Below the pieces are notes generated by a model. The model had not been told where the DNA came from and did not search any database. It saw nothing but the letters and a program-made list of their open reading frames with translations. This document shows positions 2,601 through 56,504 of a DNA stretch of 64,000 nt, piece by piece; the stretch's first letter is position 1, and each line of letters starts with the position of its first letter. A program made the translations under genes and the position numbers. Location: assembly GCA_036924085.1 (NCBI GenBank), contig JAVGWX010000011.1:15459608-15523607 (forward strand), given 5' to 3'. The stretch comes from Ariolimax columbianus (lineage: Eukaryota; Mollusca; Gastropoda; Stylommatophora; Arionidae).

Positions 2601-3056
2601 CTAATGTTCGCCTAGGCATCTAGATCCCGTTGCGTCGATCGATCAATACCATATCCAACAACTGAGACTTGTAGCCAAACCTCGTTCACTGCCGAAGGAG
2701 AGACTGCTATATGTCGGAGCCATGAGAAACGGGCTTCAGCCGGTCGGTGGGAGACCGTTGTAATTGGTCACTGTACGATGCGGAAAAACTGACTTTGTCC
2801 ATGTACCTGCAGACGGAGTGTAGCAATTCAGGAACTGATAATCTCAATTGAAAGAACATTTGGTAAATGGCGTCTGACAATAATGAATTCAACTCCCCCA
2901 ATGTGGTAGGGTCCTTCCTCCTGCACCAACGTGAATTTCACCTCCATTGTCGTACCAAGTATAGTGCGATTAGTGATGGGCGCGAGTTACGGATAGGCGA
3001 ATGAATTCATACCTACTATTTTTCAAATTAACCATGAAATGGTTTTGCTTGTGCAT

Positions 3057-3095
3057 TCTTCTTCTTCTTCTTTTTCTTCTTCTTCTTCTTCTTTT

Positions 3096-3127
<32 letters not shown>

Positions 3128-3206
3128 TTCGTACGCTGTCAAACGTCAACCTGTATTTTTTCGAAAAAAGCAGCGGTCATCATGAGGCTGTCGACACTGC
3201 CTGGAC
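3057..3206 (-). mobile_element. 3'-end fragment of the GAA-tailed I/Nimb-like LINE
   Basis: A (TTC)n run from about 3057 to 3130 is followed by CGTACGCTGTCAAACGTCAA and then by sequence matching the last ORF2 codons and 3' end of the LINE at 15352-19281, reversed. Only about 75 bp of non-tail element remains, so this is an extreme 5' truncation. The left junction is GTGCATTC against (TTC)n, like the other insertions of this family. A clear target-site duplication is not visible. Confidence 0.7.
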
Positions 3207-3209
3207 ATT

Positions 3210-4264
3210 GTAGACGTTATCTTTTCTAATGATACTAGCATCATTATCATCTACCATGTCGTCAAAATAGTTGTGCATTGGGTCCATAGACATTCAGACA
3301 CACATGGCAATGACGAGGTACACATCCCAGAAAAGATGGAATCCAGTCATGATAATCACAAACAAAAATAACTTTACAAACAGCCATGCATGTCAAAAGA
3401 ATAGTTGACATATGGCATACACCTGGATATTTCAATACCTTGTGTTTCAAGTAAACATACATCCCGTTCATCAAAACAAAAGTGCAATAGCTAATATTAT
3501 TATAATTAATCAAATAAAACTCTTTTTCAAGAGGAGAGATCTCTAGTGTCAACTGACTTACGATTACAAATCAAAACTGTCGTGCGAATTTGTTCCCATT
3601 GCTGGGGTAGTAGAGTGGTTTTAAAACTGAGGACTATAGACTGCGTAACCTCTACCATCGCCACGTCGTGTGCCGACTATGTTTGTTTATTTCACTCCCA
3701 ACAAACAAAACACATTTGCCTAATTTTAAGAAGTCGACTACAGATTATAATAATAATGACAAAGTTATTTTAAGCGTTATTGCACCGCTGCATCGATCGA
3801 CCACTGGCATGGTCACATGCTGTAGCCTGTCGTCAGACTCAGGTAGAGCTGAGGAATAGTCTGCCATCAGTCGAAACCGTGGGTTGCTGGAATGACCCAA
3901 ATGCCCAGAACCATGTGGTTTTAAGGCGAGTCGGGTACCGAGGTCCTTGCGAACTGCTTGAGGAGAATAGAGTACTCCGCTGCCTTGTTACGGGGGCTGC
4001 GAGAAGTGTGTTTAAATAGAAGTGTGTTTATCTTCCGCTAATTGGTCCGGGAAGAGGTGAGTGTCATCAGCCTAAGTAGGGAGGTCCTTTAGTATTTAGT
4101 AGGTTAACTGAACTTCATGCCACTGTCGGGCGAGGCGCTACCCAAAACTTTGTCCTGATTTCCCCCTCATGGAGATGGGAGCAGTATTCACTTTGCGCTG
4201 CGGAAGACACAAATGAGATGCTTTAAAGCGACACATTTGTTTACCTAAGTGCAGACAACTTACA
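3210..4264. other. Unassigned, no gene seen
   Basis: Mixed-composition sequence without a recognisable domain, RNA gene or array. Short ORFs near 3546-4019 carry no family signature. Confidence 0.45.
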
Positions 4265-7797: not shown

Positions 7798-8396
7798 TTC
7801 TTCTTTTTCTTTTTCTTCTTCTTCTTCTTCTTCTTCTTCTTCTTCTTCGTACGCTGTCAGACGTCAACTTGAATTTGTTCGAAGAAAGCAGCTGTCATCC
7901 TGATGCTGTCGACACTGCCATAGAGCTTGTCTAGTGGTGCCACTGTTGATGGCCACATGTGCTTTCTCTGGTCCTCGTATGTATGGCAATTTTGCAGCAG
8001 ATGTTCAGCGGTCATTTTCCCGGTACCACATGTGCATTCGTTAGTGCCACCTATCTTCAGTTTATTGAATAGGTGGTACCTCAGTCTGTTGTGGCCTGTG
8101 CAGAGTCTGAAGACGACGACCTGCTCTCTTCTGTTCAACTGGTAATAGGCATCGCTTTTTGTGTGTAGCCAGTATGTTCTGTTTCCAATTTGGCCGTGTA
8201 TCTGGCCCGAATAAGCCGTTTGGACTCTTCGTAGGTCACACTAGAATCTGGTTGTGTTAGTCTTGCACCTTCTTTTGCCAGTCTGTCTGCCTCCTCGTTG
8301 CCTTGGATGTTACAATGGGACGGAACCCACTATACCACTACTCTTTTTGGTGCGGACTGCTGGCATAGTTGATAGAGTACTGCTATTAAATCATTA
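7798..8396 (-). mobile_element. 5'-truncated copy of the GAA-tailed I/Nimb-like LINE
   Basis: About 600 bp from the 3' end of the LINE whose fullest copy is at 15352-19281. It has a (TTC)n tail at 7798-7848, the 3' UTR, the zinc-knuckle region (ECTCGTGKMTAEHLLQNC), and part of RNase H up to the QQSAPK region. A perfect 14-bp target-site duplication GAACTACATGGATC flanks it (7784-7797 and 8397-8410). The ORF ends with the native-looking stop after QIQVDV at 7857. It is a textbook 5'-truncated retrotransposition product and cannot move on its own. Confidence 0.9.
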
Positions 8397-9060: not shown

Positions 9061-9640
9061 ACTATCTTGTGGCCATGTGTTTTCTGATCCACCAGTATGG
9101 CATGCTGAATGAAAGAAACTAGGCGGCGGTCCAGTGTTTTCTGATCCAGCCGTATGGCATGCTGAAACAAAGAAACTAGGCGGCGGTCCAGTGTTTTCTG
9201 ATCCACCAGTATGGCATGCTGAATGAAAGAAACTAGGCGGCGGTCCAGTGTTTTCTGATCCAGCCGTATGGCATGCTGAAACAAAGAAACTAGGCGGCGG
9301 TCCAGTGTTTTCTGCTCCATCCGTATGGCATGATTAAACAAAGAAACTAGGCGGTGGTCCAGCCATATGCATGATCAAACAAAGAAACTAGGCGGTGGTC
9401 CAGTGTTTTCTGGTCCATCCGTATGGCATGATCAAACAAAGAAACTAGGCGGCGGTCCAGTGTTTTCCGGTCCATCCGTATGGCATGATCAAACAAAGAA
9501 ACTAGGCGGCGGTCTAGTGTTTTCTGGTCCATCCGTATGGCATGATTAAACAAAGAAACTAGGCGGTGGTCCAGTGTTTTCTGGTCCATCCGTATGGTAT
9601 GATTAAACAAAGAAACTAGGCGGCGGTCCATTGTTTCCGA
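9061..9640. repeat. Minisatellite, 57-bp unit, about 9-10 copies
   Basis: Tandem 57-bp units begin GAAACTAGGCGGCGGTCCAG. Two subtypes alternate at the left end (CTGAATGAAAGAAA and CTGAAACAAAGAAA), which suggests a 114-bp higher-order unit. Later units carry CATGATCAAACAAA. Because 57 is a multiple of three, open frames with a 19-residue repeat (DQKTLDRRLVS core) appear on the minus strand, interrupted by a 21-bp deletion near 9360. I see no start context, splice sites or family match, so I do not call a gene. Confidence 0.85.
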
Positions 9641-10724: not shown

Positions 10725-11550
10725 GAATGATGACGGTTATCGTGATGCTGATTATTGTGATGATGATGGTAGTGATGATAATGATGATGATGTTGTTGAT
10801 GATGATGGTGATTGTGATGATAATTGTGATCGTCATGATAATGGCGATGGTGATAATGAGGGTGTTGGTGACAGTGGTGATGATGATGGTGTTGATTATG
10901 GTGGTAGTGATGATGGTGGTGATCATGATGATGATGTCGATGCTGATGTTGATAGTGATGATTATGGGGGTTGTTATATTGATGGGGATGTTGATAGTGA
11001 TGATTATGGTGGTTATTATGTTGATGGGGATGTTGATAGTGATGATTATGGTGGTTGTTATGTTGATGGGGATGTTGATAGTGATGATTATGGTGGTTGT
11101 TATGTTGATGGGGATGTTGATAGTGATGATTGTTATGCTGATGGGTGATGTTGATAGTGATCATTATGGTGGTTGTTATGTTGATGGGGATATTGATGGT
11201 GATCATTATGGTGGTTGTTATGTTGATGGGGATGTTGATAGTGATCATTATGGTGGTTGTTATGTTGATGGGGATGTTGATGGTGATCATTATGGTGGTT
11301 GTTATGTTGATGGGGATGTTGATAGTGATTATTATGGTGGTTGTTATGTTGATGGGGATGTTGATAGTGATCATTATGGTGGCTGTTATGTTGATGGGGA
11401 TGTTGATAGTGATCATTATGGTGGTTGTTATGTTGATGGGGATGTTGATGGTGATCATTATGGTGGTTGTTATGTTGATGGGGATGTTGTTGGTGATCAT
11501 TATGGTGGTTGTTATGTTGATGGGAATGTTGATTGTGATCATTATGGTGG
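10725..11550. repeat. GAT-rich array resolving into a 42-bp minisatellite, about 14 copies
   Basis: An ATG/GAT-rich low-complexity stretch (10725-10940) grades into regular 42-bp units carrying GTTGATAGTGATCATTATGG and TGGTTGTTATGTTGATGGGG. Because 42 is a multiple of three, long frames occur on both strands (His-rich, Ile/Thr-rich, Met/Val-rich and YVDGDVDSDHYGGC repeats). These are composition artefacts. Its distal edge was the target of the rRNA-LINE insertion. Confidence 0.85.
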
Positions 11551-11892
11551 TTGTTATGATGATGGTAGTCGTGGTGATGATGAAGATGGTGGTGATGGTG
11601 ACAAAGGCGATGCCTATGGTAATTATCATGATGATGATGATGGTGATGATTAAGGGAATTATTATGATGATGTTGGTAATGATGATGATGTTGATGGTGA
11701 TGATGGTTATGCTGATGATGTTGATCAAGGTAAACATGGTGATGATGTTCATGATAATAACGACGATGATGATATTTGCGTCTCGCCGTTTCTCTCCAGG
11801 TGAAGCATATAGCTACCACTAAAGCTGGCACATTTATAGCAAGCAGGTTTTTGTGGTCATTTCGTAACAAATTCGAAGCATATTTCATATTT
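11531..11892. repeat. Left copy of the long direct repeat flanking the rRNA-LINE insertion
   Basis: 362 bp starting GATTGTGATCATTATGG and ending GCATATTTCATATTT. It is repeated at 19282-19589 with very few substitutions (for example ATTCGAAG against ATTGGAAG) and with a 54-bp segment present here (about 11650-11705) that is missing from the right copy. The missing segment is bounded by GGTGATGAT words, so slippage explains it. Position and junctions fit a target-site duplication. Confidence 0.85.
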
Positions 11893-12537
11893 CTGGGGTA
11901 GTTGTCTATCTGGGGTAGTTGTCTCGCCGCAGCGACTCAATTTCAACCAGTGTTCGTAAAGCGATCTCAGTCCCGCCAGGCGGAGCGATAGCGCGGGCTT
12001 GCGGAAAACGCTCGCCTGCCTTTCCCCGTAGTGCGAATTGGGTGCGGTTTGTGGTAGTGGCTCCTCCACCGAGGTGCCCTAGTCTGGTCCGTATCAGGAA
12101 ACGTGGTCCGTCCGTGGTGATTTCTCTAAGGCTTATAGCAGAGCTCGACAGTACGTCTCGCTGGTGGTCCGACTCTCGCAAAGAGCTTGTGACCGGCAAA
12201 TGGAAAGCAGGAATCGTTGCCTCGAGGCCCTGCGTTCTCTCCCTACGGAGAAGGGCAGGCCAAATGGTGTCTCTAGTCCCAGGGAAATTCGTCGCCGAGG
12301 TCGTTGGGATCCGTTCTGCACAGAGCGCTGCCATCCCTCCTCGAGCGAGCCCGGTCGGTCGGTCGTCTGGTGCGTGTGGGAGGCCCCTGTCAGGCGGTTC
12401 TAGGTCGACGGAGTGAGGGACGGGTGGAACAACCGTCCGTCCGTCCCGTCAGTCGGTCCCTGCGGCCGTCCCAGTGAGGCTTTTTACACACCCTTCCTCC
12501 GCCGACCGGTGTGCGCAGTACGTACGTCTCCGACAGA
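11893..12537 (+). other. Probable 5' external transcribed spacer of rDNA
   Basis: GC-rich sequence unlike its AT-rich surroundings, running directly into the first base of 18S rRNA. It contains GGTCGGTCGGTCG-type runs near 12353 and opens with a short tandem duplication (CTGGGGTAGTTGTCT at 11893 and 11909). Long ORFs on both strands reflect GC content. Identity as 5' ETS is inferred from position, composition and the seamless 18S junction; ETS sequences are too variable to recognise directly. If the left boundary is the transcription start, it would mark a full-length 5' end of a pre-rRNA. Confidence 0.65.
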
Positions 12538-13704
12538 TATCTGGTTGATCCTGCCAGTAGTCATATGCTTGTCTCAAAGATTAAGCCATGCATGTCTAAG
12601 TTCACACTGTCTCACGGTGAAACCGCGAATGGCTCATTAAATCAGTCGAGGTTCCTTAGATGACACGATCCTACTTGGATAACTGTGGCAATTCTAGAGC
12701 TAATACATGCTTACCAAGCTCCGACCCTCGCGGAAAGAGCGCTTTTATTAGTTCAAAACCAATCGTCGTTTCCCCTCGCGGGGTTGCGGCGTCCCCACTG
12801 GTGACTCTGGATAACTTTGTGCTGATCGCATGGCCTCATGTGCCGGCGACGCATCTTTCAAATGTCTGCCCTATCAAATGTCGATGGTACGTGACATGCC
12901 TACCATGTTTGTAACGGGTAACGGGGAATCAGGGTTCGATTCCGGAGAGGGAGCATGAGAAACGGCTACCACATCCAAGGAAGGCAGCAGGCGCGCAACT
13001 TACCCACTCCCGGCACGGGGAGGTAGTGACGACAAATAACAATACGGGACTCTTTCGAGGCCCCGTAATTGGAATGAGTACACTTTAAACCCTTTAACGA
13101 GGATCTATTGGAGGGCAAGTCTGGTGCCAGCAGCCGCGGTAATTCCAGCTCCAATAGCGTATATTAAAGTTGTTGCAGTTAAAAAGCTCGTAGTTGGATC
13201 TCAGGCGCAGGCGGGCGGTCCGGCTCGCGCCGGTTCACTGCCCGTTGTCTCCTGCCCTACCGTCTGCCGGCTCTCTCCCACGGGTGCTCTTCGCTGAGCG
13301 TCCTGGGTGGCCGGCGCGTTTACTTTGAAAAAATTAGAGTGTTCAAAGCAGGCCTCGGCTGCCTGAATAATGGTGCATGGAATAATGGAATAGGACCTCG
13401 GTTCTATTTTGTTGGTTTTCGGAACTGGAGGTAATGATTAACAGGGACAAACGGGGGCATTCGTATTGCGGCGTTAGAGGTGAAATTCTTGGATCGCCGC
13501 AAGACGAGCTACTGCGAAAGCATTTGTCAAGAATGTTTTCATTAATCAAGAACGAAAGTCAGAGGCGCGAAGACGATCAGATACCATCGTAGTTCTGACC
13601 ATAAACGATGCCGACTAGCGATCCGCAGGAGTTGCTTCGATGACTCTGCGGGCAGCTTCCGGGAAACCAAAGTGTTTGGGTTCCGGGGGAAGTATGGTTG
13701 CAAA

Positions 13705-13753
<49 letters not shown>

Positions 13754-13777
13754 GCGGCTTAATTTGACTCAACACGG
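12538..13777 (+). rRNA. 18S (SSU) rRNA, 5' two-thirds only (truncated copy)
   Basis: It begins with the universal SSU 5' end (CTGGTTGATCCTGCCAGTAG at 12541) and contains GTGCCAGCAGCCGCGGTAAT (about 13125) and the GAGGTGAAATTCTTGGATCG segment (about 13476). It follows a metazoan SSU with few visible changes up to TTAATTTGACTCAACACGG, where the next bases should be GAAACC but are CCAACACTG. About 1240 of the expected 1800-1900 nt are present. The variable-region sequence looks molluscan, probably gastropod. There is no 5.8S or 28S nearby, and it is embedded in a retrotransposon insertion, so it is an rRNA pseudogene and not a working rDNA unit. Its low divergence suggests a recent event. Confidence 0.95.
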
Positions 13778-14400
13778 CCAACACTGAAATGAGTGACATG
13801 CCGAGACCACTCTTCTGGGGTCTAATATAGAACTGGTGCTGGACTTAGACCCCCAGAATTCTGGGGTTATGCCCCTGTGGCTCGGTTCTGTCTGCATCCA
13901 GTGTGTGACAAAGGAATTGACGGAAGAGCACTATCAGGAGTGGAGCCTGAGACCTAAGTTAACTTACCACGCCAATACTGCAGAATGACTATCAAAAAGT
14001 ACACCCTCGCGGGGTCTAATAGAGAACATGTGCTGGAATTAGACCCTCGAAAATTTTGGGGCTACCCTCTAAGAAACTTGATTGTCTCGCTAAGGGAATT
14101 GACGGAAGGGCACCACCAGGTGTGGAACCTGCGGCTTAATTTGACTGAACACGCCAATACTGTAGAACAACTGACAAATCGAGAGCACTGCCGTTTGGGT
14201 CTAATAATGAACGTACGCTGGTATTAGACTCACGGATGACAAGTCAGCTCTCAAACACTCAAATGAAAGAACGCTACGGAAATCGTGTTTTAACTCTGCA
14301 GAAACCGCAGATTTCAAATACCTGGTCATTGACAAACAAAAGCCCTCAATAAATTCGTCTGACCAAATAGTGAACGGGTGCTGGAAATAGATCATCTGAA
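13715..14400 (+). repeat. Tandem monomers of about 160-195 bp, three carrying a 60-bp 18S segment
   Basis: The block AAGGAATTGACGGAAGGGCA to TTTGACTCAACACG of 18S occurs at 13715-13777 (contiguous with real 18S), at 13910-13970 (diverged) and at 14092-14153. After each comes a CCAATACTG- or CCAACACTG-type word, and then a second motif GTCTAATATAGAAC followed by GTGCTGGANTTAGAC at 13819, 14013, 14198 and (degenerate, without the 18S part) 14358. Spacings are 194, 185 and 160 bp. This looks like a LINE 5' UTR built of monomers, or a trace of repeated insertion at one 18S site. Confidence 0.8.
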
Positions 14401-15351
14401 GACAGGTCAGTTTTACCCTACAAATGACTCGGCGTTGCTACGGAAAACCAGCTCAAATCGAGAGGAGCCGCAGACACTTTGGTTCACGTACCAGGCTGAT
14501 AAGCCAAGGGCGCGAGGCTACCATGTGGGGGATAGCGGCCGAACCCTTGAAAGCCGCAATCCCGCCCAAAATCTCAGCACCACTGCAATGGGAGGCTCCT
14601 ACATGCTCGGGACCGGGGGCTTGCGCCCCAGCCCTATCAGGTAGAGCCACAGTAAGAGGCCCTTGCCGCCCGCAAGTCAAAGCGGGCGGACAACTGCTTG
14701 ATACTCACCCTATACGGCGATGGGGTGCGAAAAACACCAACCAAAGACTTAGTACCTGGTCGGGGTGTCGAAAACAGTAGAGCAGCCACCTCACTGTGAA
14801 CTGTAAAGACTCAACCACCGACCATGAGAGTTGTCCGCACACCAGGCGAACAACATCTCTGTGACATTACCAGGCTTGTCCTCTGGCTGAATGCACTCCG
14901 GCTACGATATCTACCTCTGTACGTTATCAGCCATATAACTATCATACTGGACGCAGAAGAGATGCAGACCAGCGGACATTGCACACCTGCCCCACTGTGT
15001 CAACACCCCAGGTGGCGGGGAATGCTAGGCGTACCATCCCTGCATAGAAGCCAAGAAAATAAAGGGAAAAAGAGATACCCCACTCAAATGCAAATGCTAC
15101 GTTTCTGGCAGGACGTGACGATCCTGGGATACAGACACACTGGACTGCCTCTCTTCCGGGTAAACCAGTCCATCTCATATATCACATATCATTGCACCCT
15201 ATAGACACGAGTAGTGAAGACTCGATAGTCTGGTAAGACAACTTCCATAGGAGAGAAAACTCTGATCGTAAACAACTGCTGCCTTGCAGATAGGCTGGGG
15301 ACAGCCAAAGGCTAAGGAGGGCATCCCTACAGAAACGCCTGTTGAAATCGG
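14401..15351 (+). other. LINE 5' leader without an ORF1
   Basis: GC-balanced sequence between the monomers and the ORF2-like frame. It contains no ORF with a CCHC zinc knuckle or coiled coil, so the ORF1 expected for most I-group LINEs is absent. Short frames at 14378-14780 and 14824-15204 have no family signature. Either this element type has a single ORF or ORF1 was lost in the chimera. Confidence 0.5.
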
Positions 15352-18300
15352 ATGCACGGGGCCGCAAGCCTAACAAAACAGTGCAACGTAAATCACAGTA
15401 TGATGGCAGTACAACCTATTCGAAAAACGTATGGCGCTCATCCTGAGGAGACCCGCCAGGCAGCGATAGCGCCGGGCCTCACGCCTCGAAGGGGCCCACC
15501 CTTGACTACTGGTGGTCACCCACCCATGTGTCGTGGAGTCAAGGCACATGGCTACGGGGCAACGTCTATTGGCCAAAACCTCAAGACCCTCAAAATATTA
15601 CAGTGGAATGCGGAGGGAGTCATTAACAAAAAACTTTCCCTAACACACCACCTGCATGAAGGTAAGATTGACGTGGCATGTATCCAGGAAACGCACCTCA
15701 ACAATAACCATAAATTCTCAATCAGAGGATACCAGACCTTCCGTCTAGACAGAGAAGGCCACAAAGGAGGGGTCCTGATACTGACCAGAAACAGCATACC
15801 GAGTAGCGCGGTACCTGTCAATCACACCGGACAAGCAGAAATTGTAGGAGTTGACATAATGGCTCAAGAGACGAAGCTCCGCATTTTCAATCTGTACGGA
15901 CCACCAAACAGAGACCTATCGCTCTCGAGTATGGAGGTCAGAGACTCCAACTGCATAGTAGTTGGAGATTTCAACAGCCACTCGGAGAGATGGGGCTACT
16001 CTGACACAGACAGCAGAGGTGACGAAGTGGAAGATTGGGAGATAGATGCAAATCTCTCCCTAATCAATAGGCCGGAGGATAGCCCTAGCTTCTATTCAAG
16101 AACATGGCATACCACCTCGATTCCAGATTTGGCCTTCTCCACACAGGACATACACTATAAAATAGACCGCCAGGTGCTAAACCAACTGGCAGGTAGCGAC
16201 CACAGGCCGATCAGGCTAACCATTGACATGGAAGTAGGCCCACAGGAAACAAAACCGCTCCCACGTTGGAATTACAAACGAGCCGACTGGGACAGATTTG
16301 CAATCCTGACAGATGGGCTGTGTGAAACCATCAACACACGAAACACCAAAATGAAGCACATGGTAGAGAGCCTAAGCAAGGCAATAATGCAAGCCGCCAC
16401 TGAAACCATCCCAAGAGGAGCTAGGAAAAACTATAAGCCCTACTGGAATGATGAGTTGCAGAAAGTGGAAGATGCAGTAACAAATGCTAGGAACGTGGCA
16501 GAACGAGAAAAATCCATGGAGGCAAACATTGCCCTCAAAGCCGCCACGGCGAAGTACAAACACACTCTCAAGCAAACAGCAAGAGAAAGTTGGAAAAATA
16601 AAACGGAAAGTTTAAACCTGGACAAAGAAGGGAACAAGCTATGGAAGCTAGTCAGAGCCATGAATGACGAAACCCCGTCAAATAAACAAATTACTATCAA
16701 GCAGGGCGAGAACTTGATCACAGGTAAGAAAGCCGCAAACGCCTTTGTCGATCACTATGCCAGAGCAAACCACATCGAGGTCCCTGCAGATAAGCATACA
16801 GACATTAGCGAAGAGCTAAAGGGACACGAAAACATAAATACGGCTCCTGAAGAGAACATGATGGCCAAACTAACCATGCGCGAAATGGAAGAGGCTATGA
16901 GAACACTAAAGAAAAGGAAATCTCCCGGAAAAGACGGGATAACAAACGAAATGCTGATGGGGCTGGGCCAAACAGCGAAGAAAAAACTACTATCAGTCCT
17001 GAACCAAAGCTGGAAAAGGGGTATTGTACCCCAGGCATGGAAAGATGCAATACTGGTACCAGTACCAAAAACAGGAAAGGACAAAACAGATCCGAATGGA
17101 TACAGGCCCATAAGCCTACTGAGCTGTGTCGGCAAGCTGATGGAACGGATGATAAACACCAGACTGATGTGGCATCTGGAAGAAAAACGAATACTAATTC
17201 CACAGCAAGCCGGCTTTAGACAGCACAGATCCACTGAGGACCAGGTCATCCTCATAGCCCAGGAGATAGAAGATGCCTACCAGGCACAGAAACACACAGT
17301 AGCTGTTTGGGTGGATCTGGAAAAGGCATTTGACAAAGTCTGGAAGGATGGACTTAGAGTCAAGCTAAGAAGAAGTGATGTCTGTGGGAAGATGTACAAG
17401 TGGATCAACGACTACCTCAAACAAAGAATGGCCAGAGTCCAAGTACAAGGGCAGATGAGCAAAAAGGTGACACTCGAGCAGGGAGTACCCCAAGGGGGAG
17501 TACTGTCACCCACACTCTTTCTGGTATATATAAACGATATTACAGAGAATATACCAAGAAGAGTTCATAGCTCAATGTTTGCAGACGATCTGGCTATGTG
17601 GACCTCTGAAAAGAATCTCACCATAGCAAGAAATCGGATGCAAACAGCCCTAACATCGCTGGAAGAGTGGGCGAACTCATGGCTGGTCAAAATAAACGAG
17701 GAGAAAACCACGTGCACAATATTCTCGCTCTCATTAAAACCCCAAAGTACCAAATTAAGCCTAAATGGCAAAATCCTGCAGCCAAACGACAACCCAAACT
17801 ATCTGGGAGTCACATTTGATCGGCGCATGACATGGAAAAGTCAGATTGAGAGAAACCGAATGAAAGCCAGAGAAAGAATGGCGATCATGAGGAAACTTGC
17901 TGGCACAAGCTGGGGAGCAGACGAAGGCATACTAAAGAAACTGTACACTGGAAGAGTGAGACCAGTTCTCGAGTATGGCATTGCGGCATGGACAACAGCA
18001 GCGAAGGCGAACTTCGATAAAGTTAACAAACTTCAAAACCAAGCCATGAGAATTATAACAGGTGGCATGAAGTCAACGCCAATTGTAGAACTTGAAAAGA
18101 TTACAAAACTGCAATCCATGACCGATAGAAGAGACTGCAGAGCCCAGCTGCAGTCAGAGAAACTCCGAAGACTGACGGACCATCCAATGTACCAGAGACT
18201 AAACAATTTGGGAAATGGGAAACTAAAGCGGAGAAACTTTGCAGAAATAGCCAAAGCAAAGATGCACGAAGATCCCATAAACGCACTAACAACACCAAAA

Positions 18301-19500
18301 CCCATCACTACTGTACGAAAACCTACTTGGAGGCAGGATATATTTCCAGAGGTGGTAGAAAATATACCAGGTATTGCAAACAAAAACTGCCAGAGTGAAA
18401 AAGAAAGGAGAGACACTACCCTAAGCTTCATAACGAAAAGCTACCCAAGCATGGACTGGACCCATGCATACACCGACGGTTCTGTAACAAACACTACACA
18501 GAACGGAGGGGCAGGAGCATTCCTGAACCTACCAAATGGCAGAAATATAACACTGTCATTCGCTACTGGTAAGTACACAAGCAATTTCAGAGCAGAGGCA
18601 GAGGCACTGAGGGCGGCAGTGGAAGAAATGGTAACACATAGTGAAAATGAGAGCCATATAGTCTTGCTGACAGATGCTCTCGAAGTAGTCACAGCGCTAA
18701 AAAGCCAGAAGAACACTGAGCTTAATGACTTAAGAGCAGCACTCTGCAAACTGTGCCAGCAGTCCGCACCAAAAAGGGTGGTGGTACAGTGGGTTCCGTC
18801 ACACTGCAACATCCTAGGCAACGAGGAGGCAGACAGACTGGAAAAAGAAGGTGCAAGGCTACCACAAACAGATACCAGTATGACGTACGAAGAGTCAAAA
18901 CGGCTTATCAAAGCCAGATACATGTCCAAATGGGAAACCGAACATACTGGTTACACCAAAAACGATGCCTATTACCAGTTGAACCGAAGAGAGCAGGTCG
19001 TTGTCTTCAGACTTCGCACTGGCCACAACAGACTGAGGTACCACCTATTCAACAAACTGAAGATAGGGTGTACCGACGAATGCCCGTGCGGTACTGGTAA
19101 AATGACCACTGAACATCTGCTGCAGAACTGCCCGACATACGAGGATCAGAGAGAGCAGATGTGGCCATTGCCAGTGGAACTGCAAGACAAGCTGTATGGT
19201 AGTGGCGAGAGTCAGGATGACCGCTTTTTTCGAGAAAATAATGGTTACTGTCTGACTGTGTACGCAGAAGAAGAAGAAGAAGATTGTGATCATTATGGTG
19301 GTTGTTATGATGATGGTAGTCGTGGTGATGATGAAGATGGTGGTGATGGTGACAAAGGCGATGCCTATGGTAATTATCATGATGATGATGATGGTGATGA
19401 TGGTTATGCTGATGATGTTGATCAAGGTAAACATGGTGATGATGTTCATGATAATAACGACGATGATGATATTTGCGTCTCGCCGTTTCTCTCCAGGTGA
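15352..19500 (+). CDS. LINE ORF2 polyprotein: APE endonuclease, reverse transcriptase, RNase H, zinc knuckle
   Basis: A 1382-codon open frame; homology starts at about residue 80, so the true start may lie after the first Met. APE endonuclease: QWNAEG (84), QETH (~111), GDFNSH (~205) and SDHRPI (~282). RT: KSPGKDG (~523), YRPISLLS (~584), VDLEKAFDK (~654), QGVPQGGVLSP (~710) and catalytic FADD (~743). RNase H: YTDGS (~1040), EAEAL (~1081), TDALE (~1107) and EEAD (~1158), all acidic residues present. A C-x-C-x(9)-H-x(4)-C knuckle lies near 1244 (ECPCGTGK...EHLLQNC). The domain order fits the I superfamily (I/Nimb/Ingi type). Other copies stop soon after the knuckle; here a frameshift near 19200 makes the frame read through the tail as EEEEE and into the flanking duplication, so the last 72 residues are target-derived. 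Catalytic motifs look intact, so it could encode active enzyme. Confidence 0.92.
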   Translation: MHGAASLTKQCNVNHSMMAVQPIRKTYGAHPEETRQAAIAPGLTPRRGPPLTTGGHPPMCRGVKAHGYGATSIGQNLKTLKILQWNAEGVINKKLSLTHHLHEGKIDVACIQETHLNNNHKFSIRGYQTFRLDREGHKGGVLILTRNSIPSSAVPVNHTGQAEIVGVDIMAQETKLRIFNLYGPPNRDLSLSSMEVRDSNCIVVGDFNSHSERWGYSDTDSRGDEVEDWEIDANLSLINRPEDSPSFYSRTWHTTSIPDLAFSTQDIHYKIDRQVLNQLAGSDHRPIRLTIDMEVGPQETKPLPRWNYKRADWDRFAILTDGLCETINTRNTKMKHMVESLSKAIMQAATETIPRGARKNYKPYWNDELQKVEDAVTNARNVAEREKSMEANIALKAATAKYKHTLKQTARESWKNKTESLNLDKEGNKLWKLVRAMNDETPSNKQITIKQGENLITGKKAANAFVDHYARANHIEVPADKHTDISEELKGHENINTAPEENMMAKLTMREMEEAMRTLKKRKSPGKDGITNEMLMGLGQTAKKKLLSVLNQSWKRGIVPQAWKDAILVPVPKTGKDKTDPNGYRPISLLSCVGKLMERMINTRLMWHLEEKRILIPQQAGFRQHRSTEDQVILIAQEIEDAYQAQKHTVAVWVDLEKAFDKVWKDGLRVKLRRSDVCGKMYKWINDYLKQRMARVQVQGQMSKKVTLEQGVPQGGVLSPTLFLVYINDITENIPRRVHSSMFADDLAMWTSEKNLTIARNRMQTALTSLEEWANSWLVKINEEKTTCTIFSLSLKPQSTKLSLNGKILQPNDNPNYLGVTFDRRMTWKSQIERNRMKARERMAIMRKLAGTSWGADEGILKKLYTGRVRPVLEYGIAAWTTAAKANFDKVNKLQNQAMRIITGGMKSTPIVELEKITKLQSMTDRRDCRAQLQSEKLRRLTDHPMYQRLNNLGNGKLKRRNFAEIAKAKMHEDPINALTTPKPITTVRKPTWRQDIFPEVVENIPGIANKNCQSEKERRDTTLSFITKSYPSMDWTHAYTDGSVTNTTQNGGAGAFLNLPNGRNITLSFATGKYTSNFRAEAEALRAAVEEMVTHSENESHIVLLTDALEVVTALKSQKNTELNDLRAALCKLCQQSAPKRVVVQWVPSHCNILGNEEADRLEKEGARLPQTDTSMTYEESKRLIKARYMSKWETEHTGYTKNDAYYQLNRREQVVVFRLRTGHNRLRYHLFNKLKIGCTDECPCGTGKMTTEHLLQNCPTYEDQREQMWPLPVELQDKLYGSGESQDDRFFRENNGYCLTVYAEEEEEDCDHYGGCYDDGSRGDDEDGGDGDKGDAYGNYHDDDDGDDGYADDVDQGKHGDDVHDNNDDDDICVSPFLSR
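19265..19281 (+). repeat. (GAA)n 3' tail of the LINE
   Basis: GCAGAAGAAGAAGAAGA-type run directly before the right flanking repeat. The same tail, reversed as (TTC)n, closes the copies at 3057, 7798, 23135 and 34354. Confidence 0.85.
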
Positions 19501-19589
19501 AGCATATAGCTACCACTAAAGCTGGCACATTTATAGCAAGCAGGTTTTTGTGGTCATTTCGTAACAAATTGGAAGCATATTTCATATTT
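19282..19589. repeat. Right copy of the long direct repeat flanking the rRNA-LINE insertion
   Basis: 308 bp matching 11531-11892, including the unique part CGCCGTTTCTCTCCAGGTGA and AGCATATAGCTACCACTAAA. It lacks the 54-bp segment found in the left copy. Directly after it begins a fragment of a different LINE, which should therefore have been next to the GAT array before the insertion. Confidence 0.85.
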
Positions 19590-23134: not shown

Positions 23135-25030
23135 TTTCTTTTTCTTCTTCGTACGCAGTCAGACATCAACCTTTATTTTTTCGAAAAAAAAACAACGGTC
23201 CTCCTGAGGCTGTCGACACTGCCATAGAGCTTGTCTAGTGTTGCCACTGGTGATGGCCACATCTGCTCTCTCTGATCCTCGTATGTCGGACAGTTTTGCA
23301 GCAAATGCTCAGCGGTCATTTTCCCGGTACCACACGGGCATTCGTCAGTGCCACCTATCTTCAATTTGTTCAATAGGTGGTACCACAGTCTATTGTGGCC
23401 AGTGCGAAGTCTGAAGACCACGACCTGCTCTCTTCTGTTCAACTGGTAATAGGCATCGTTTTTTGGGTAGCCAGTATGTTCGGTTTCTCATTTGGTCATG
23501 TATCTAGCTCTAATAAGCCGTTTTGACTCTTCGTATGTCATACTAGTATCTGGTTGTGGTAGTCTTGCACCTTCTTTTGCCAGTCTGTCTGCCTCCTCGT
23601 TGCTTTGGATGTTGCAGTGGGATGGAACCCACTGTACCACTACCCTTTTTGGTGCGGACTGCTGGCATAGTTCACAGAGTACTGCTCTTAAATCTTTAAG
23701 TTCAGAATTTTTCTGGATTTTACTATATGGCTCTCATTCCTTTTACCTGTCACCATTTCTTCCACTGCCGCCCTCAGTGCCTCTGCCTCCGCTATGAAAT
23801 TTGCTTGTGTATTTTCCAGTAGCGAATGACAGTGTTATTTTTCTGCCATTTGGTAGGTTCAGAAATGCTCCTGCCCCTCCGTTCTGTGTTGTGTTTGTTA
23901 CAGAATCGTCGGTGAATGCATGGGTCCAGTCCATGCTTGGGTAGTTTTCCGTTATGTAGCTCAGGGTAGTATCTCTTCTTTCTTTTTCAGTCTTGCAGTT
24001 TTTGTTTCCAATACCTGGTATATTTTCTACCACCTCTGGAAATATATGCTGCCTCCAGGTAGGTTTTCGTACAGTAGGGATGGGCTTTGGTGTTGTTAGT
24101 GCGTTCATGGGGTCTTCGTGCATCATTGCTTTGGCTATTTCTGCAAAGTTTCTCCGCTCTAGTTTCCCATTTCCGAGATTGTCTAGTCTCTGGTGCATTA
24201 GATGGTCATTCAGTCTTCTGAGTTTCTCTGCTTGCTGCTGGGCTCTGCAGTCTCTTCTGTCGGTCACGGATTGCAGTTTTGTAATCTTTTCAAGTTCTAC
24301 AATTGGCGTTGACTTCATGCATCCTGTTATAATTCTCATGGCTTAGTTTTGGAGTTTGCTAATTTTATCGAAGTTCGCCTTCGCTGCTGTTGTCCATGCC
24401 GCAATGCATTACTCGAGTACTGGTCTCACTCTTCCACTGTATAGTTTCTTTAGTATACTTTCGTCTTCTCCCCAGCTTTTGTCAGCAAGTTTCCTCATGA
24501 TTGCCATTCTTTCTCTGGCTCTCATGCCGTTTCTCTCGATCTGACTTTTCTATGTCATGTACAGATCTAATGTGACTCCCATGTAGTTTGGGTTGTCGTT
24601 TGGCTGCAGGTATTTGCCGTTAAGACTTAGTTTTGTGTTTTGGGGTTTGTTTGATAGCGAGAATATTGTACATGTCGTTTTTTCTTCGTTTATTTTGACC
24701 AGCCATGAGTTCGCCGACTCTTCCATCGATGTTAGGGCCTGCTGCATCCGATTTATTGCTATGGTGAGATTCTTTTCAGAGGTCCACATAGCCAGGTCGT
24801 CTGCAAACATTGAGCTATGGACTCTTCTTGGTATATTCTCTGTTATATTATTTATATACACCAGGAAGTGTGTGGGTGACAGTACTCCCCCTTGGGGTAC
24901 TCCCTGCTCAAGTGTCACCTTTTTGCTCATCTGCCTTTGTATTTGAACTCTGGCCGTTCTGTTTGTGAGGTAGTGACTAATCCATTTATACATTTTCCCA
25001 CAAACTTCACTTCTTTGTAGCATAACTCTA
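23135..25030 (-). mobile_element. 5'-truncated copy of the GAA-tailed I/Nimb-like LINE
   Basis: About 1.9 kb covering the 3' tail (TTTCTTTTTCTTCTTCG), the zinc knuckle (ECPCGTGKMTAEHLLQNC), RNase H, the region between RT and RNase H, and RT from SEVCGKMYKWISHYL through FADD. A 12-bp target-site duplication ATAGTGGCATAT flanks it (23123-23134 and 25031-25042). Stops and frameshifts split it into at least three frames (23173-23442, 23743-24339, 24550-25070). The open frame runs a few codons past the element into flanking DNA at the right. It is not autonomous. Confidence 0.92.
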
Positions 25031-25089
25031 ATAGTGGCATATAATCTTCGTAAGTTAAGGATCACTGAGCCTAACGTAACCCTCCAGCT

Positions 25090-27320: not shown

Positions 27321-27544
27321 AATACTCACATGTGAAAGTGAAGTTTGAAAAATAATAAAAGTATTGGAAAAGACACTAATCGTGTTTAAAAATTAATGTC
27401 TAATTTTAATTCGATTCAACTGCCATCTCCGAATATCCACGCAGGAAAGTTGACAAGTATGAGAAGAAATAAGAAATGTTTGAATCGAACCAAGTTTATA
27501 TTCAATAGTTGTATATAGAACGTGAAATTTACTTATCTACCAAG
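27320..27544. other. Unassigned AT-rich spacer
   Basis: No recognisable structure between the LINE B end and the 38-bp array. Confidence 0.4.
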
Positions 27545-28152
27545 GCAAAACTTACTGGGAGTCTTCATCTAAGCCAGCGTTGGCAAAACTTACTGGGAGT
27601 CTTCATCTAAGCCAGCGTTGGCAAAACTTACTGGGAGTCTTCATCTAAGCCAGCGTTGGTTCCACTTGCTGGGAGTCTTCATCTAAGCCAGCGTTGGCAA
27701 CACTTGTTGGGAGTCTTCATCTAAGCCAGCGTTGGCAACACTTGCTGGGAGTCTTCATCTAAGCCAGCGTTGGCAAAACTTACTGGGAGTCTTCATCTAA
27801 GCCAGCGTTGGCAACACTTGCTGGGAGTCTTCATATAAGCCAGCGTTGGCAACACTTGCTGGGAGTCTTCATCTAAGCCAGCGTTGGCAAAACTTACTGG
27901 GAGTCTTCATCTAAGCCAGCGTTGGCAACACTTGCTGGGAGTCTTCATATAAGCCAGCGTTGGCAACACTTGCTGGGAGTCTTCATCTAAGCCAGCGTTG
28001 GCAACACTTGCTGGGAGTCTTCATATAAGCCAACGTTGGTTCCACTTGCTGGGAGTCTTCATCTAAGCCAGCGTTGGCAACACTTGTTGGGAGTCTTCAT
28101 CTAAGCCAGCGTTGGCAACACTTGCTGGGAGTCTTCATATAAGCCAGCGCTG
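27545..28152. repeat. Minisatellite, 38-bp unit, 16 copies
   Basis: Highly regular head-to-tail units of CTTACTGGGAGTCTTCATCT plus AAGCCAGCGTTGGCAAAA, with a few alternating variants (AAAACTTACTG, AACACTTGCTG, TTCCACTTGCTG, CATATAAGCC). The ordered reuse of the same variants implies block duplication, and the low divergence suggests recent expansion. There are no unique spacers, so it is not a CRISPR array. Confidence 0.93.
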
Positions 28153-34341: not shown

Positions 34342-34353
34342 GTCAACATATTC

Positions 34354-37322
34354 TTCTTCTTCTTCGCACGCTGTCAAGCGTCAACCTGTATTTGCTGGAA
34401 GAAAGCAACGGTCATCCTGAGGCTATCGACACTGCCATAGAGCTTGTCTAGTGTTGCCACTGGTGATGCCACATCTGCTTTCTCTGGTCCTCGTATGTTG
34501 GGCAGTTTTGCAGCAGATGTTCAGCAGTCATTGTCCCGGTACCACAAGTGCATTCGTCAGTGCCACCTATCTTCAGTTTATTAAATATGTGGTACCTCAG
34601 TCTGTTGTGGCCTGTGCGAAGTCTGAAGACCACGACCTGCCTGTGTTTGCCTCCTCATTGATTTGGATGTTACAGTGGGATGGAACCCATTGTACCACTA
34701 CTCTTTTCGGTGCGGACTGCTGGCATAATTGACAGAGTACTGCTCTTAAATCATTAAGTTCTGTATTATTCTGGCTTTTTAGTGCTGTGACTACGTCCAG
34801 GGCATCTGTAAACAGGACTATCTGGCTTTCATTGCTTTCGTCTGTCAGCATTACTTCAACTGCACCTCTCAGTGCCTCTGCCTCCGCTCTGAAATTGCTT
34901 GAGAATTTTCCAGTTGTCACTGACAGTGTTATTTTTCTACCATTTGGTAGGCTCAGGAATACCCCTGCCCCTCCGTTCTGTGTTGTGTTTGTTACAGAGC
35001 CGTCGGTGTATGCATGGGTCCAGTCAATGCTTGGGTAGTTTTCCGTTATGTACCTCAGAGTTTTGTCTCTTCTTTCTTTTTCAGACTTGCTGTTGTTATT
35101 TCCAATACCTGGTACATTTTCTACCACCCCCGGAATTATATGCTGCTGCCAGGTAGGTTTGCGTACAGTAGGGATGGGCTTTGGTATTGTTACGGTGTTC
35201 ATAGGGTCTTCGCACATCTTTGCTTAGGCTATTTTTGCAAAGTTTCTCCTCGTTAGTTTTCAATTTCCAAATCTATTTAATCTCTGATGAATTGTATGGT
35301 CTGTCAGTCTTCTGAGTTTCTCTGCTTGCTGCTGGGCTCTGCAGTCTCTTCTGTCGGTCTAGGGTTGCAGATTTATAATCTTTTAAAGTTCTACAATTAG
35401 CGTTGACTTCATGCCTCCTGTTATAACTTTCATGGCTTGGTTTTGAAGTTTGCTAGTTTTATCAAAGTTTGCCTTTGCTGCTGTTGTCCATACCGCAATG
35501 CCATATTCGAGAGCTGGTCTCACTCTTCCAGTGTACAGTTTCTTGAGTATTCTTTCGACTGCTCCCCAGCTTGTGCCAGCAAGTTTCCTCAAGATTGCCA
35601 TTCTTTGTCTGGCTCTCATTCGGTTTCTCTCGATCTGACTTTTCTATGTCACGCGCAGATCAAATGTGACTCCCAGGTAGTTTGGCTTGTCGTTTTGCCG
35701 CAGATATTTGCCGTTAAGCTTTATGTTGGTGTTCTGGGGTTTGAAAGCGAGAATATCGTACATGTTGTTTTTTCCTCATTTATTTGGACCAGCAATGAGT
35801 TCGACCACTCCTCCAACGATGTTAGGGCCTGCTGCATCCGATTGTTTGCTATGGTAAGATTTTTTCAGAGGTCTACATAGCCATATCGTCTGCAAACATG
35901 GAGCTGTGGACTCTTCTTTGTATATTCTCTGTGATGTTGTTTATATACACCAGGAAAAGTGTGGGTGACAGTCCTCCCCCTTGGGGTACTCCCTGCTCAA
36001 GTGTCACCTTTTTTGCTCATCTGCCCTTGTACTTGAACTGTGGCTGTTCTGTTTTCGAGGTAGTGGCTGATCCATCTGTACATTTTCCCACAAACTTCAC
36101 TGCTTTGTAGCTTGACTTTAAGTCCCTCTATCCACACCTTGTCAAATGCCTTCTCTAAATCCACCCAAACCGCTACTGTGTGTTTTTTCTCCTGGTAAGC
36201 ATCCTCTATTTCCCGGGCTATGAGAGCGATCTGGTCCTCGTTGGATCTGTGCTGTCTAAAACCTGCTTGCTGTGGAATTAGTATGTGTTTTGCTTCTAGA
36301 TACCACATCAGTCTGGCGTTTATCATACGTTCCATCAGTTTGCCTACACAGCTCAGTAGGCTGGTAGGCCTGTATCCATTTGGATCTGTTTTATCTTTTC
36401 CTTTCTTTGGTACTGGTACAAGTACTGCGTCTTTCCATGCCTGGAGTACAATACCCCTTTTCCAGCTTTGGTTCAGGACTGATAGTAATTTCCTCTTTGC
36501 TGTTTGGCCCAGCCCCATCAACATTTCGTTTGTTACCCCATCTTTTCCGGGAGATTTCCTTTTCTTTAACGTTCTCATGGCCTCATCCATTTCATTCATT
36601 GTTAGTTTTGCCATCATGTGCTCCTCTGGTACCATCTTGATGTTGTCGTGGCTCTTTTGTTCTTCACTAATATCTGTATGCCTGTCTGTAGGGACATCAA
36701 TGTGGTTTGCTCTGGCATAATGTTCTATAAAGGCGTTTGCTGTTTTTTTTTTCCGGTAAGCATGTTGTCGCACTGTTTGATGGTAATTTGTTTATTTGAT
36801 GGTGTTTTGTCATTCATGGCTCTGACTTAATTCCATGGTTTGTTCCATTCTTTGCCTAAATTGAGGCTTTCTGTTTTGTTTTTCCAGCTGTCTCTTGTTA
36901 TTTGGTTAAGTGTTCTTTTGTATTTCGCAGTGATTGACTTTAGGGCGATATTGGCTTCCATAGATTGCTCTATCTCTGCCATGTTCCTAGCCTTTGAGAC
37001 TTCATCCTCCGCTTTCTGCAGTTCACGATTCCAATATGGCTTGTAGTTTTTCCATGCCCCTCTTTGGATGGTTTCGGTGGCTGCTTGCATTATTGCTTTG
37101 CATAGGCTTTCCACCATAGGTTTCATATTCTTATTTCGTGTGTTGACGGTTTCACACAGTCCATCTGTCAGCATTGCAAATCTGTCCCAGTCGGCTCGTC
37201 TATAGTTCCAACGTGGCAGCGATTTTATTTCCTGGGGTCCAACTTCCATATCAATTTCTAGCCTAATTTGCCGGTGGTCGGTACCTGCCAATTGGTCGAG
37301 CACCTGACGATCTATTTTGTTG
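34354..37322 (-). mobile_element. 3 kb 5'-truncated copy of the GAA-tailed I/Nimb-like LINE
   Basis: It covers the end of the APE domain (KIDRQVLDQLAGTDHRQIRL at the right edge), the linker, RT (KSPGKDGVTNEMLMGLGQ, VDLEKAFDKVW), RNase H (YTDGSVTNTTQ) and the knuckle (ECTCGTGTMTAEHLLQNC). It ends in (TTC)n at the left. A 12-bp target-site duplication GTCAACATATTC flanks it (34342-34353 and 37323-37334). A deletion at about 34637 removes the segment between RNase H and the knuckle. Several frameshifts exist, including one in KKGDT near 36000. It is non-autonomous and older than the copy at 15352. Confidence 0.93.
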
Positions 37323-43796: not shown

Positions 43797-44128
43797 TTGT
43801 TTATTTATATCTGTAGATGAGTGTACATATAGTTTGTTTATTTATATCTGTAGATGAGTGTACATATAGTTTGTTTATTATATCTGTAGATGAGTGTACA
43901 TATAGTTTGTTTATTTATATCTGTAGATGTGTGTACATATAGTTTGTTTATTTATATCTGTAGATGAGTGTACATATAGTTTGTGTATTTATATCTGTAG
44001 ATGAGTGTACAGATAGTTTGTTTATTTATATATGTAGATGAGTGTACATATAGTTTGTTTATTTATATATGTAGATGAGTGTACATATAGTTTGTTTATT
44101 TATATATGTAGATGAATGTACAGATAGT
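43797..44128. repeat. Minisatellite, 37-bp unit, 9 copies
   Basis: Regular units of TTTATTTATATCTGTAGATG plus AGTGTACATATAGTTTG. Divergence is low, with one unit missing one base. Confidence 0.92.
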
Positions 44129-44314
44129 TATAAGATACAACTCCCGTCTGTAATCGGGGTAGAATATAATTCGTTATGCTTGTTATGTAAATCAAACATT
44201 GTGACGATGTGTGTTTTGGTAAAAGAATCAAGAGCTTGCAGCTTATCACTACATAAACAGTTATTGGTAGACATATTGGGACTTCACTTTGATCACCATG
44301 AAGCACAATATGTA

Positions 44315-45365
44315 TAGCGATAAACTTGCTTAGGTTATTATTAACCACGTTGTCTAGACCGAAACTTGCCTAGGTTACTATTAACCACGTTGTCTAGACC
44401 GATAAACTCGCCTAGGTTACTATTAACCACGTCGCCTCGACCAATAAACTCGCCTAGGTTACTATTAACCACGTCGTCTAGACCGATGAACTTGCCTAGG
44501 TTACTATTAACCACGTCGTCTAGACCGATAAACTTGCCTAGGTTACTATTAACCACGTCGTCTAGACCAATAAACTCGCCTAGGTTACTATTAACCACGT
44601 CGCCTCGACCAATAAACTCGCCTAGGTTACTATTAGCCACGTCGTCTAGACCGATAAACTTGCCTAGGTTACTATTAACGACGTCGCCTCGACCAATAAA
44701 CTCGCCTAGGTTACTATTAACCACGTCGTCTAGACCGATAAACTTGCCTAGGTTACTATTAACTACGTCGTCTAGACCAATAAACTCGCCTAGGTTACTA
44801 TTAACCACGTCGTCTAGACCGACAAACTTGCCTAGGTTACTATTAACCACGTCGTCTAGACCGATAAACTCTCCTATGTTACTATTAACCACGTCGTCTA
44901 GACCGATAAACTTGCCTAGGTTACTATTAACCACGTCGTCTAGACCGATAAACTCTCCTATGTTACTATTAACCACGTCGTCTAGACCGATAAACTCGCC
45001 TAGGTTACTATTATCCACGTCGTCTAAACCAATAAACTCGCCTAGGTTATTATTAACCACGTCGTCTAGACCGATAAACTCGCCTAGGTTACTATTAACC
45101 ACGTCGTCTAGACCGATAAACTCGCCTAGGTTACTATTAACCACGTCGTCTAGACCGATAAACTTGCCTAGGTTATTATTAACCACGTCGTCTAGACCGA
45201 TAAACTCGCCTAGGTTACTATTAACCACGTCGTCTAGACCAATAAACTCGCCTAGGTTACTATTAACCACGTCGTCTAGACCAATAAACTCGTCTAGGTT
45301 ACTAATAACCAACTAATACATTGCGATAACCTCATTTAGATTACCAATAACTACGTTGTCTAAAA
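44315..45365. repeat. Minisatellite, 42-bp unit, about 24 copies, open on both strands
   Basis: Units of TAGGTTACTATTAACCACGT plus CGTCTAGACCGATAAACTCGCC. Variants (GCCTCGACCAATAAA, CTCCTATGTTACT) recur in blocks. Because the unit is 14 codons and lacks stops in two frames, a 323-codon frame on minus (NSNLGEFIGLDDVV repeats) and a 316-codon frame on plus overlap. There is no signal peptide, splice signal or known family, so neither is called as a gene. Confidence 0.92.
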
Positions 45366-56500: not shown

Positions 56501-56504
56501 CATT

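Follow-up and report, generated by a model that had tools for sequence, protein, structure and literature searches.

How does the front part of a ribosomal RNA precursor come to stand ahead of a LINE retrotransposon at a site outside the rRNA genes? The question is raised by a 64,000-nucleotide stretch of the Ariolimax columbianus genome (the window; contig JAVGWX010000011.1, positions 15,459,608 to 15,523,607). The initial annotation described, at 11893-19281, one retrotransposed insertion joining a probable 5' external transcribed spacer (ETS), 18S rRNA, 18S-bearing monomers and a LINE. Two origins were offered. Either a LINE within 18S was co-transcribed by RNA polymerase I (Pol I) and the whole RNA inserted elsewhere, or the reverse transcriptase jumped from LINE RNA to pre-rRNA. 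The parts of the window copy are as follows.

11531-11892, forward strand: left flanking direct repeat (308 bp aligned to 19282-19589, 1 mismatch, 54-bp indel)
11892-11907, forward strand: partial duplication of ETS bases +2 to +17, with comparable 5' duplications in copies L022 and L024
11908-12537, forward strand: pre-rRNA 5' ETS, from the presumed first base (+1) up to the 18S start (common 5' boundary of the copies; alignment with native rDNA from L047:2370)
12538-13777, forward strand: 18S rRNA positions 1-1240 (Rfam profile; native-unit alignment)
13715-14229, forward strand: three 18S-tract monomers with LINE-specific spacers between them (tract at 13715, 13910 and 14092)
14429-14832, forward strand: decayed 28S rRNA 3' end within the LINE 5' region (RF02543, 62.7 bits, model 3005-3399 of 3401)
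15352-19281, forward strand: LINE ORF (APE ~15598-16215, RT 17074-17817, RNase H 18466-18855)
19267-19283, forward strand: (GAA)n 3' tail, read from the sequence
19282-19589, forward strand: right flanking direct repeat, paired with 11531-11892

The composition first described holds, including the three enzymatic domains, the repeated 18S tract, the tail, the bounding direct repeats and the single shared orientation. The start needs correction, as the element begins at 11908 and not at 11893. The 18S segment scores 943.5 bits against Rfam SSU_rRNA_eukarya (model 4-1116, from 12541) and differs from native 18S at 2 of 1,239 compared bases. The first 18S tract belongs to this 18S head, and the second and third share 81% and 90% identity, respectively, with native 18S. 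The LINE ORF of the window copy carries a frameshift near its C-terminus and reads on into the tail. The flanking direct repeats far exceed those of other copies in length; the left one is either an unusually long target-site duplication or a pre-existing duplication. The decayed 28S end, probably an older rRNA capture, had been overlooked, as had shorter pieces of the same LINE elsewhere in the window and the membership of this copy in a family.

The structure had been taken for a single event. It is instead the product of a repeated process, as the exact 24-nt junction between 18S and LINE has 4,676 matches by pattern search in the window's own 2.29-Gb genome, where the reversed pattern has none. 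All 17 full-length relatives compared share the starting base and the (GAA)n end, and short target-site duplications flank 17 of 19 inspected copies, at unrelated sites. The best-scoring matches to the element are spread over many contigs. The 100 junctions listed (of 4,676) all lie on contig C1, and for 46 of these first-listed junctions the exact first 20 nt lie in the same orientation at an upstream distance of 1,803-1,895 nt. Among the ETS matches listed other than the window, 39 of 39 begin at query bases 13-29, base 29 being window position 11908. Three begin at base 13, and both of those fetched (L022, L024) carry a short 5' duplication. Assembly of ribosomal DNA is difficult, and a large share of it consists of N in this genome, which would favor an assembly artefact or a chance collage. 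Against this stand the 17 full-length copies on many contigs, with different flanks and mostly short duplications, and the empty reversed-pattern control. Misassembly as the sole cause is thus ruled out in practice, and we give such readings a negligible chance.

In 10 of 18 copies the ORF stays open for 1,304 codons and ends in a stop ahead of the tail, and in 7 of 18 it is interrupted. The notion of a family ORF without a stop was dropped, given these ten copies. Upstream of the main ORF, two short frames tried as ORF1 gave no Pfam match, and no Rfam ribozyme family was found in 13700-15400 at E up to 1.

The head of the element is native pre-rRNA. The 630 nt preceding 18S match the native 5' ETS, which begins directly after promoter-like sequence in tandem rDNA units. 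An 18-copy consensus head aligns to native unit L047 with 99.3% identity over 1,877 columns; the two are identical across 18S 1-1240, and all 4 mismatches and both gaps fall in the ETS. The suspected ETS is thereby confirmed, and the native unit was inspected for a non-ETS stretch 5' of 18S, which did not occur. Copies with 23-31% divergence in the monomer region are merely 0.5-2.3% from native in 18S. Parsimony-informative sites number 0 of 1,239 in 18S, 72 of 3,925 in the ORF, and 11 of 639 in the ETS (Fisher p 4e-9 for 18S against the ORF, 7e-6 for 18S against the ETS). The 18S head tracks native 18S without drifting alongside the LINE. Variants of the ETS are weakly linked to body subfamilies, with a Mantel r of 0.22-0.34, as against 0.79-0.85 within the body.

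These counts bear on a vertical origin, in which rRNA was captured once and headed, dispersed copies have been the sources ever since. The 4,676 identical junctions would fit such descent, as would the 43 synonymous and 27 nonsynonymous changes shared among ORFs, an excess which argues that the sources form a selected lineage. However, bodies drift and 18S heads do not, so that the 18S counts strongly disfavor this origin, and the promoter is absent from nearly all heads. We hold it to be very unlikely.

The missing promoter is evident from genome-wide counts. The first 20 nt of the element have 3,697 matches, and the promoter end plus the first 16 nt have 122. Of the latter, 100 are listed, and 96 of these sit on 12 small rDNA-array scaffolds; on 11 of the 12, successive matches are spaced by about 12.15-12.3 kb. 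Dispersed copies are nearly all without the promoter, although two junction copies with a promoter (L075, L078) lie on chromosomes. In one copy (L016), ITS2 is fused exactly onto the first base of the ETS, as expected if that base is an RNA end.

Heads of this kind could also be made afresh for each copy by homology-guided template switching. LINE RNA would start in or near the 18S-tract monomers, and the 18S-complementary cDNA end would transfer to nascent pre-rRNA and be extended to +1, resembling retroviral strong-stop transfer. The occurrence of 18S tracts as monomers, the tracking of native 18S, the weak linkage of ETS to body, and the existence of other heads (5.8S/ITS and some 18S) joined at varied points all favor this route. 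Switching should nevertheless use mature 18S more often than pre-rRNA, but among 10 sampled copies there is none whose start coincides with the 5' end of mature 18S. Six of the ten reach +1 (L056 beginning at +3, and L058 lacking an internal segment), three are truncated elsewhere, and the start of L055 lies just outside the piece fetched. A single junction in 4,676 copies is also at odds with switching, which moreover leaves an array unit holding both promoter and LINE unexplained. We regard this route as unlikely for the main head, for which it is the chief rival reading. The template jump of the initial annotation probably made the rarer heads, namely those with 5.8S/ITS and those with 18S at differing junctions.

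The array unit in question lies on scaffold C67. Its promoter is at 99031 on the reverse strand, with the 18S-LINE junction at +1848 (L059), and two other units of the scaffold (L062, L068) have an uninterrupted site at the same offset. The promoter of the resident unit equals that of L047 over the 104 nt read. The 111 bp read at the resident junction are identical, 111 of 111, in all 40 dispersed matches listed. The spacing at this unit is 18,554 bp against 12,150, and the extra 6,404 bp differ from the 5.5-kb LINE body of the window copy. Five array units are readable at the 18S site, with four intact (L047, L062, L068, L072) and one interrupted (L059); 12 of 16 array sites examined read wholly N. 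A 26-mer of the intact site has 185 matches with the species' own base and none with one other base. A pattern search of the genome for a LINE 3' end joined directly to the 18S sequence that should follow it gave 0 matches, with most array sites reading N. The C67 units with spacings of 16,303 and 29,118 bp had been suspected residents, but these are L062 and L068, in which the site is intact. On C86, a spacing of 31,938 bp corresponds to about two units plus 7.37 kb, and its site reads N.

The LINE could have reached the C67 array when a dispersed copy with a head recombined with rDNA, the true source being elsewhere. Head and rDNA share ~1.85 kb of homology, and the place expected for the resident 3' end reads N. 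In addition, a head of 1,878 nt, against 1,848 in the resident, is found in two dispersed copies that match the resident perfectly over 111 bp, so that the resident is not their direct parent. On the other hand, the resident junction falls at the array's own offset, and recombination requires an additional source of native heads. This account is highly improbable.

The first origin proposed for the window copy is the best supported, by the native ETS from the presumed +1, the promoter-free copies, and the one rDNA unit with a LINE at 18S position 1240. We give a probability of roughly two in three to a LINE in 18S rDNA that is co-transcribed by Pol I, with the entire unprocessed ETS-18S-LINE RNA being retrotransposed. 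Against this reading count the lack of matches to a LINE 3' end joined to 18S, the N at the place expected for the resident 3' end, the unread 1.8 kb between the resident promoter and junction, the extra length of 6,404 bp, the small number of readable array units, the 1,878-nt heads of two matching copies, the two chromosomal copies with a promoter and the weak linkage of ETS to body. An APE-RT-RNase H LINE would sit, sense-oriented, at position 1240 of some 18S genes. Pol I, to which the common start and the promoter-free copies point, would begin at the rDNA promoter and yield a single RNA of 5' ETS, 18S 1-1240 and LINE. The ETS would be kept because 18S is broken. Target-primed reverse transcription would then copy the unprocessed chimera into quasi-random sites, leaving short duplications, and new copies would span +1 to (GAA)n with the promoter left behind. 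Since they lack a promoter, most copies would be transcriptional dead ends, and the lineage would persist in rDNA. We infer +1 as the transcription start, processing failure, residents as parents, and translation of the chimeric RNA. The odds are about even for a broader picture, a LINE lineage that is a Pol I-driven passenger of host rRNA genes, whose mobile unit regularly opens with primary pre-rRNA, beginning at +1 and covering two thirds of 18S, each wave of retrotransposition spreading newly copied native 18S 5' halves over many sites and the ORF being translated from the Pol I transcript.

If this is true, pre-rRNA is regularly built into the mobile unit of a retrotransposon, and the findings suggest that whole rRNA-gene transcripts can become mobile DNA. 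The heads would be self-dating, each recording host rRNA at insertion, so that ETS history and insertion age are readable from thousands of fossils. The family lends itself to natural tests of the Pol I start site in this animal, of the fate of pre-rRNA with a broken 18S, and of the making of LINE protein from a Pol I transcript. Caution is due in 18S surveys and rDNA assemblies, as partial 18S copies that are mobile number in the thousands in such genomes. Searches of one open-access collection listed no paper whose title or opening abstract describes such a family, although absence is not proven.

APE, RT, RNase H, short target-site duplications and a simple-repeat tail make the element an I-superfamily-type LINE, a likeness in domain type to the gastropod LINEs Ingi and Nimbus. 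Ingi is reported as numerous in Batillaria and Elysia (PMC11203168), genera that are among the relatives of this LINE. Architecture and gastropod relatives suggest Ingi as a tentative name. The parts seen of the Ingi and Nimbus account (PMC11203168) have no mention of rRNA heads, unlike the family here.

LINEs within rRNA genes are familiar from R1, R2, R7 and R8. R2 is transcribed together with its host rRNA gene, and R1 copies away from the usual site are known (PMC2718515); R7Ag and R8 reside in 18S (PMC6530143, PMC5035012). One C67 unit carries such a copy at a fixed rRNA-gene site in a tandem unit. Site specificity with most copies in rDNA, however, is contradicted by the 4,676 junction copies and by short duplications at unrelated sites. 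The family differs from R1, R2, R7 and R8 in its thousands of copies outside rDNA, with a pre-rRNA 5' end and at sites unlike 18S, and in the one resident unit seen among 5 readable. R2 RNA cleaves itself free by a ribozyme (PMC3774820), whereas the LINE start here matches no Rfam ribozyme family. While resident, the family behaves as an R element does, yet it is not classed as one.

Joining of rRNA to a LINE is also known from LINE-1 chimeras with 28S, U6, 5S and other RNAs, mostly sense for 28S and attributed either to template switching or to ligation of RNAs (PMC13174262). These chimeras are sporadic, with 18 cases for 28S and LINE-1 in that paper, of 50-482 nt. Here, in contrast, one junction recurs 4,676 times, with a head of ~1.87 kb from the presumed first base of pre-rRNA. 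Sporadic switching, with variable junctions and few copies each, does not describe the main junction but fits the 5.8S/ITS and some 18S heads. Acquired rRNA sequence is likewise reported in an actinopterygian R2 lineage, which gained a 28S-derived piece in its 3' UTR with a shift of insertion site (PMC5035012). In the Ariolimax family, the rRNA stands at the 5' end, tracks the native genes, and is dispersed.

The pre-rRNA-headed LINE is a family and not a lone copy. A 1,201-bp query spanning the boundary between 18S position 1240 and the LINE matched at 99–100% over its full length at 40/40 scored places, the best 40 of 2,336 first-look candidates. Exact-match counts across the genome searched (2.29 Gb, 401 contigs) are 4,676 for the 24-nt 18S–LINE junction, 3,697 for the first 20 nt of the headed unit, 14,404 for the LINE 3′ end, and 185 for the uninterrupted native 18S site; the reversed patterns, run as controls for these four, all gave 0. 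The window (G000:C11:15459608-15523607) holds one headed copy, and its features are arranged as follows.

Features of the window
11908-19283: headed unit, 7.38 kb, all parts in the same orientation
11908-12537: 5′ ETS
12538-13777: 18S rRNA 1-1240
LINE 5′ region: 18S-tract monomers and, at 14429-14832, a decayed 28S 3′ end
Single LINE ORF: APE, RT, and RNase H domains, upstream of the (GAA)n tail
34351-37318, 23136-25031, 7829-8396, 3111-3201: minus strand, additional shorter fragments of this LINE family, 79-88% identity
4269-4950, 9077-9636, 10934-11565, 27544-28149, 43797-44129, 44318-45311, 53496-53971, 56503-57139, 59324-60859: minisatellite arrays, in which the 64 kb are rich, unit size 17-57 bp

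Organism-named protein relatives among 120 listed are gastropods (Littorina, Elysia, Batillaria), which points to a probable snail host.

Twenty places were fetched for copy comparison, and 17 hold full-length copies, each beginning at the equivalent of window 11908 and ending in the tail. The other three are L021 and L023, both altered by internal insertions or deletions, and L040, which runs off the edge of its fetched piece. Short target-site duplications are present in 17/19 inspected copies, with matching stretches of ~11-18 bp that may include tail bases (one mismatch in L037; L022 and L024 assessed by eye), and no clear duplication was found in the other two, L027 and L038. The direct repeats by which the initial annotation had bounded the window copy measure 362 and 308 bp and align over 308 bp with 1 mismatch and a 54-bp indel; being much longer than these duplications, they are atypical of the family. 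L038 has a 444-column direct repeat (96%; 5′ flank -842 to -414 versus 3′ flank -2 to 441) that recalls these long repeats and is set away from the copy's 5′ edge.

The 18S and the LINE differ in how they vary. Among 18 full-length copies, window included, informative sites number 0 of 1,239 positions in the 18S, 11 of 639 in the ETS, 72 of 3,925 in the ORF, 13 of 653 in the monomers, 13 of 405 in the 28S-like segment, and 7 of 521 elsewhere in the 5′ region (18S deficit: Fisher p 4e-9 versus ORF, 7e-6 versus ETS). With ten further copies added, half of the 20 picked at even steps among the first 100 junctions listed, the pool of 28 has 2 informative sites and 97 singletons in the 18S, 54 and 69 in the ETS, and 135 and 98 in 431 positions of the monomer region. 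Four copies (L049, L052, L053, L058) are 23-31% divergent across the monomer region, where their alignment is rough, yet their 18S, reduced to 96-616 bp in the last three, lies 0.5-2.3% from native. Near-native 18S amid divergent LINE bodies argues that the 18S is derived from, or held equal to, host rRNA while the LINE evolves, a tracking for which homology-guided template switching from LINE RNA to pre-rRNA would also account. ETS variants are only weakly linked to LINE body subfamilies. ORF changes are 43:27 synonymous to nonsynonymous when shared and 58:100 when private (Fisher p 0.0008), as would be expected of a selected source lineage with decaying copies.

The copies' consensus aligns to a native tandem rDNA unit (L047, on C222) from the first base through 18S position 1240, all 4 mismatches and both gaps being confined to the ETS. 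Directly upstream of the ETS start, the rDNA carries a promoter-like ...CCGGAATGTATATT, probably the Pol I core promoter, which is absent from the flanks of inspected copies. Joined to the first 16 nt of the unit, the end of this promoter occurs 122 times; 96 of 100 listed lie on 12 small scaffolds, spaced mostly ~12.15-12.3 kb or multiples, and 4 on chromosomes. Same-strand exact starts lie no more than 3 kb upstream of 49 of the first 100 listed junctions, at a distance of 1,803-1,895 nt for 46 of these; over the stretch that those 100 junctions cover, 23/72 starts are without a matching junction. Within the ten-copy sample, six extend to the presumed first pre-rRNA base (+1) inside the piece retrieved (L056 as far as +3; L058 internally deleted), one has its start just beyond it (L055), and three are truncated (L050, L052, L053). 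No copy among the ten begins at the 5′ end of mature 18S, a lack that template switching does not explain. Extra copies of the start, 16-19 nt, in 3/18 copies (window, L022, L024) and a fusion of ITS2 to exactly the first base of the unit in L016 look like template jumps off an RNA end. Two chromosomal junction copies (C5:86644616 and C13:24610908) have the 7-nt promoter end before the start, with ~0.2 expected by chance among 3,600; they may be stray rDNA fragments or may have started upstream of +1.

Other rRNA heads exist. All ten 5.8S matches inspected, of 40 scored, adjoin this or a related family, nine next to LINE sequence and L016 next to the ETS-18S head; two of the ten, L013 and L014, lie 86 kb from each other and are nearly identical. 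The joins of the ten vary (ITS2, near 28S position 100, or inside monomers), and several have, by eye, 5′ ends in common within ITS1, close to GGGTACCTGAGCG and GGTGGTTTTCGC, which may mark cleavage sites of the pre-rRNA. L043 and L044 exit 18S at one shared base near position 1711 and differ in LINE entry base; both may derive from a common 18S fragment with that 3′ end. In L045, an 18S stretch that runs to about position 1797 is followed by a repeat of 18S 911-1240. Such heads, for which template switching would account, resemble separate template jumps or processed-precursor ends. Monomer 18S tracts retain 81-90% identity, the head is native, and the decayed 28S 3′ end is the rRNA part nearest the ORF; the LINE 5′ region may thus have captured rRNA in successive layers, the most ancient lying closest to the ORF.

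Template switching, an unlikely origin of the headed copies, likewise leaves unexplained an interrupted rDNA unit on C67, an array scaffold of 12,150-bp units. Its promoter is at 99031, and at +1848 it reads ACACGGCCAACACTG... in place of the ACACGGGAAAACTC carried there by two other C67 units (L062, L068); 18,554 bp separate it from the next listed promoter. The sequence read from this unit comprises 104 nt of promoter, matching L047, and 111 bp at the junction, two pieces about 1.8 kb apart. Those 111 bp, which open on the final five bases of the unit's 18S portion, match 40/40 scored places at 100%, all chromosomal; two of the 40 have heads of 1,878 nt versus 1,848 in the resident, which argues against a direct parent-child link to those two. 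At the resident's 3′ junction, the pattern search gave 0 matches and the expected place reads N. Of 16 array sites fetched, 12 read wholly N; L047, L059, L062, L068, and L072 are the array units readable at the site, four of them intact and one interrupted. At C86:86566-118504, a promoter spacing of 31,938 bp approximates two rDNA units plus one 7.37-kb headed element, and the piece fetched there is N.

Co-transcription by Pol I from an rDNA-resident LINE, with the whole RNA retrotransposed, is thus the favored origin of the headed copies, at a probability of roughly two-thirds, because it explains jointly the ETS retention, common start, and missing promoter, and also covers the native-tracking 18S, single dominant junction, and resident unit. 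Export of the front end of pre-rRNA by the thousand is undescribed as far as our literature searches show; known R elements match the resident half of the model.
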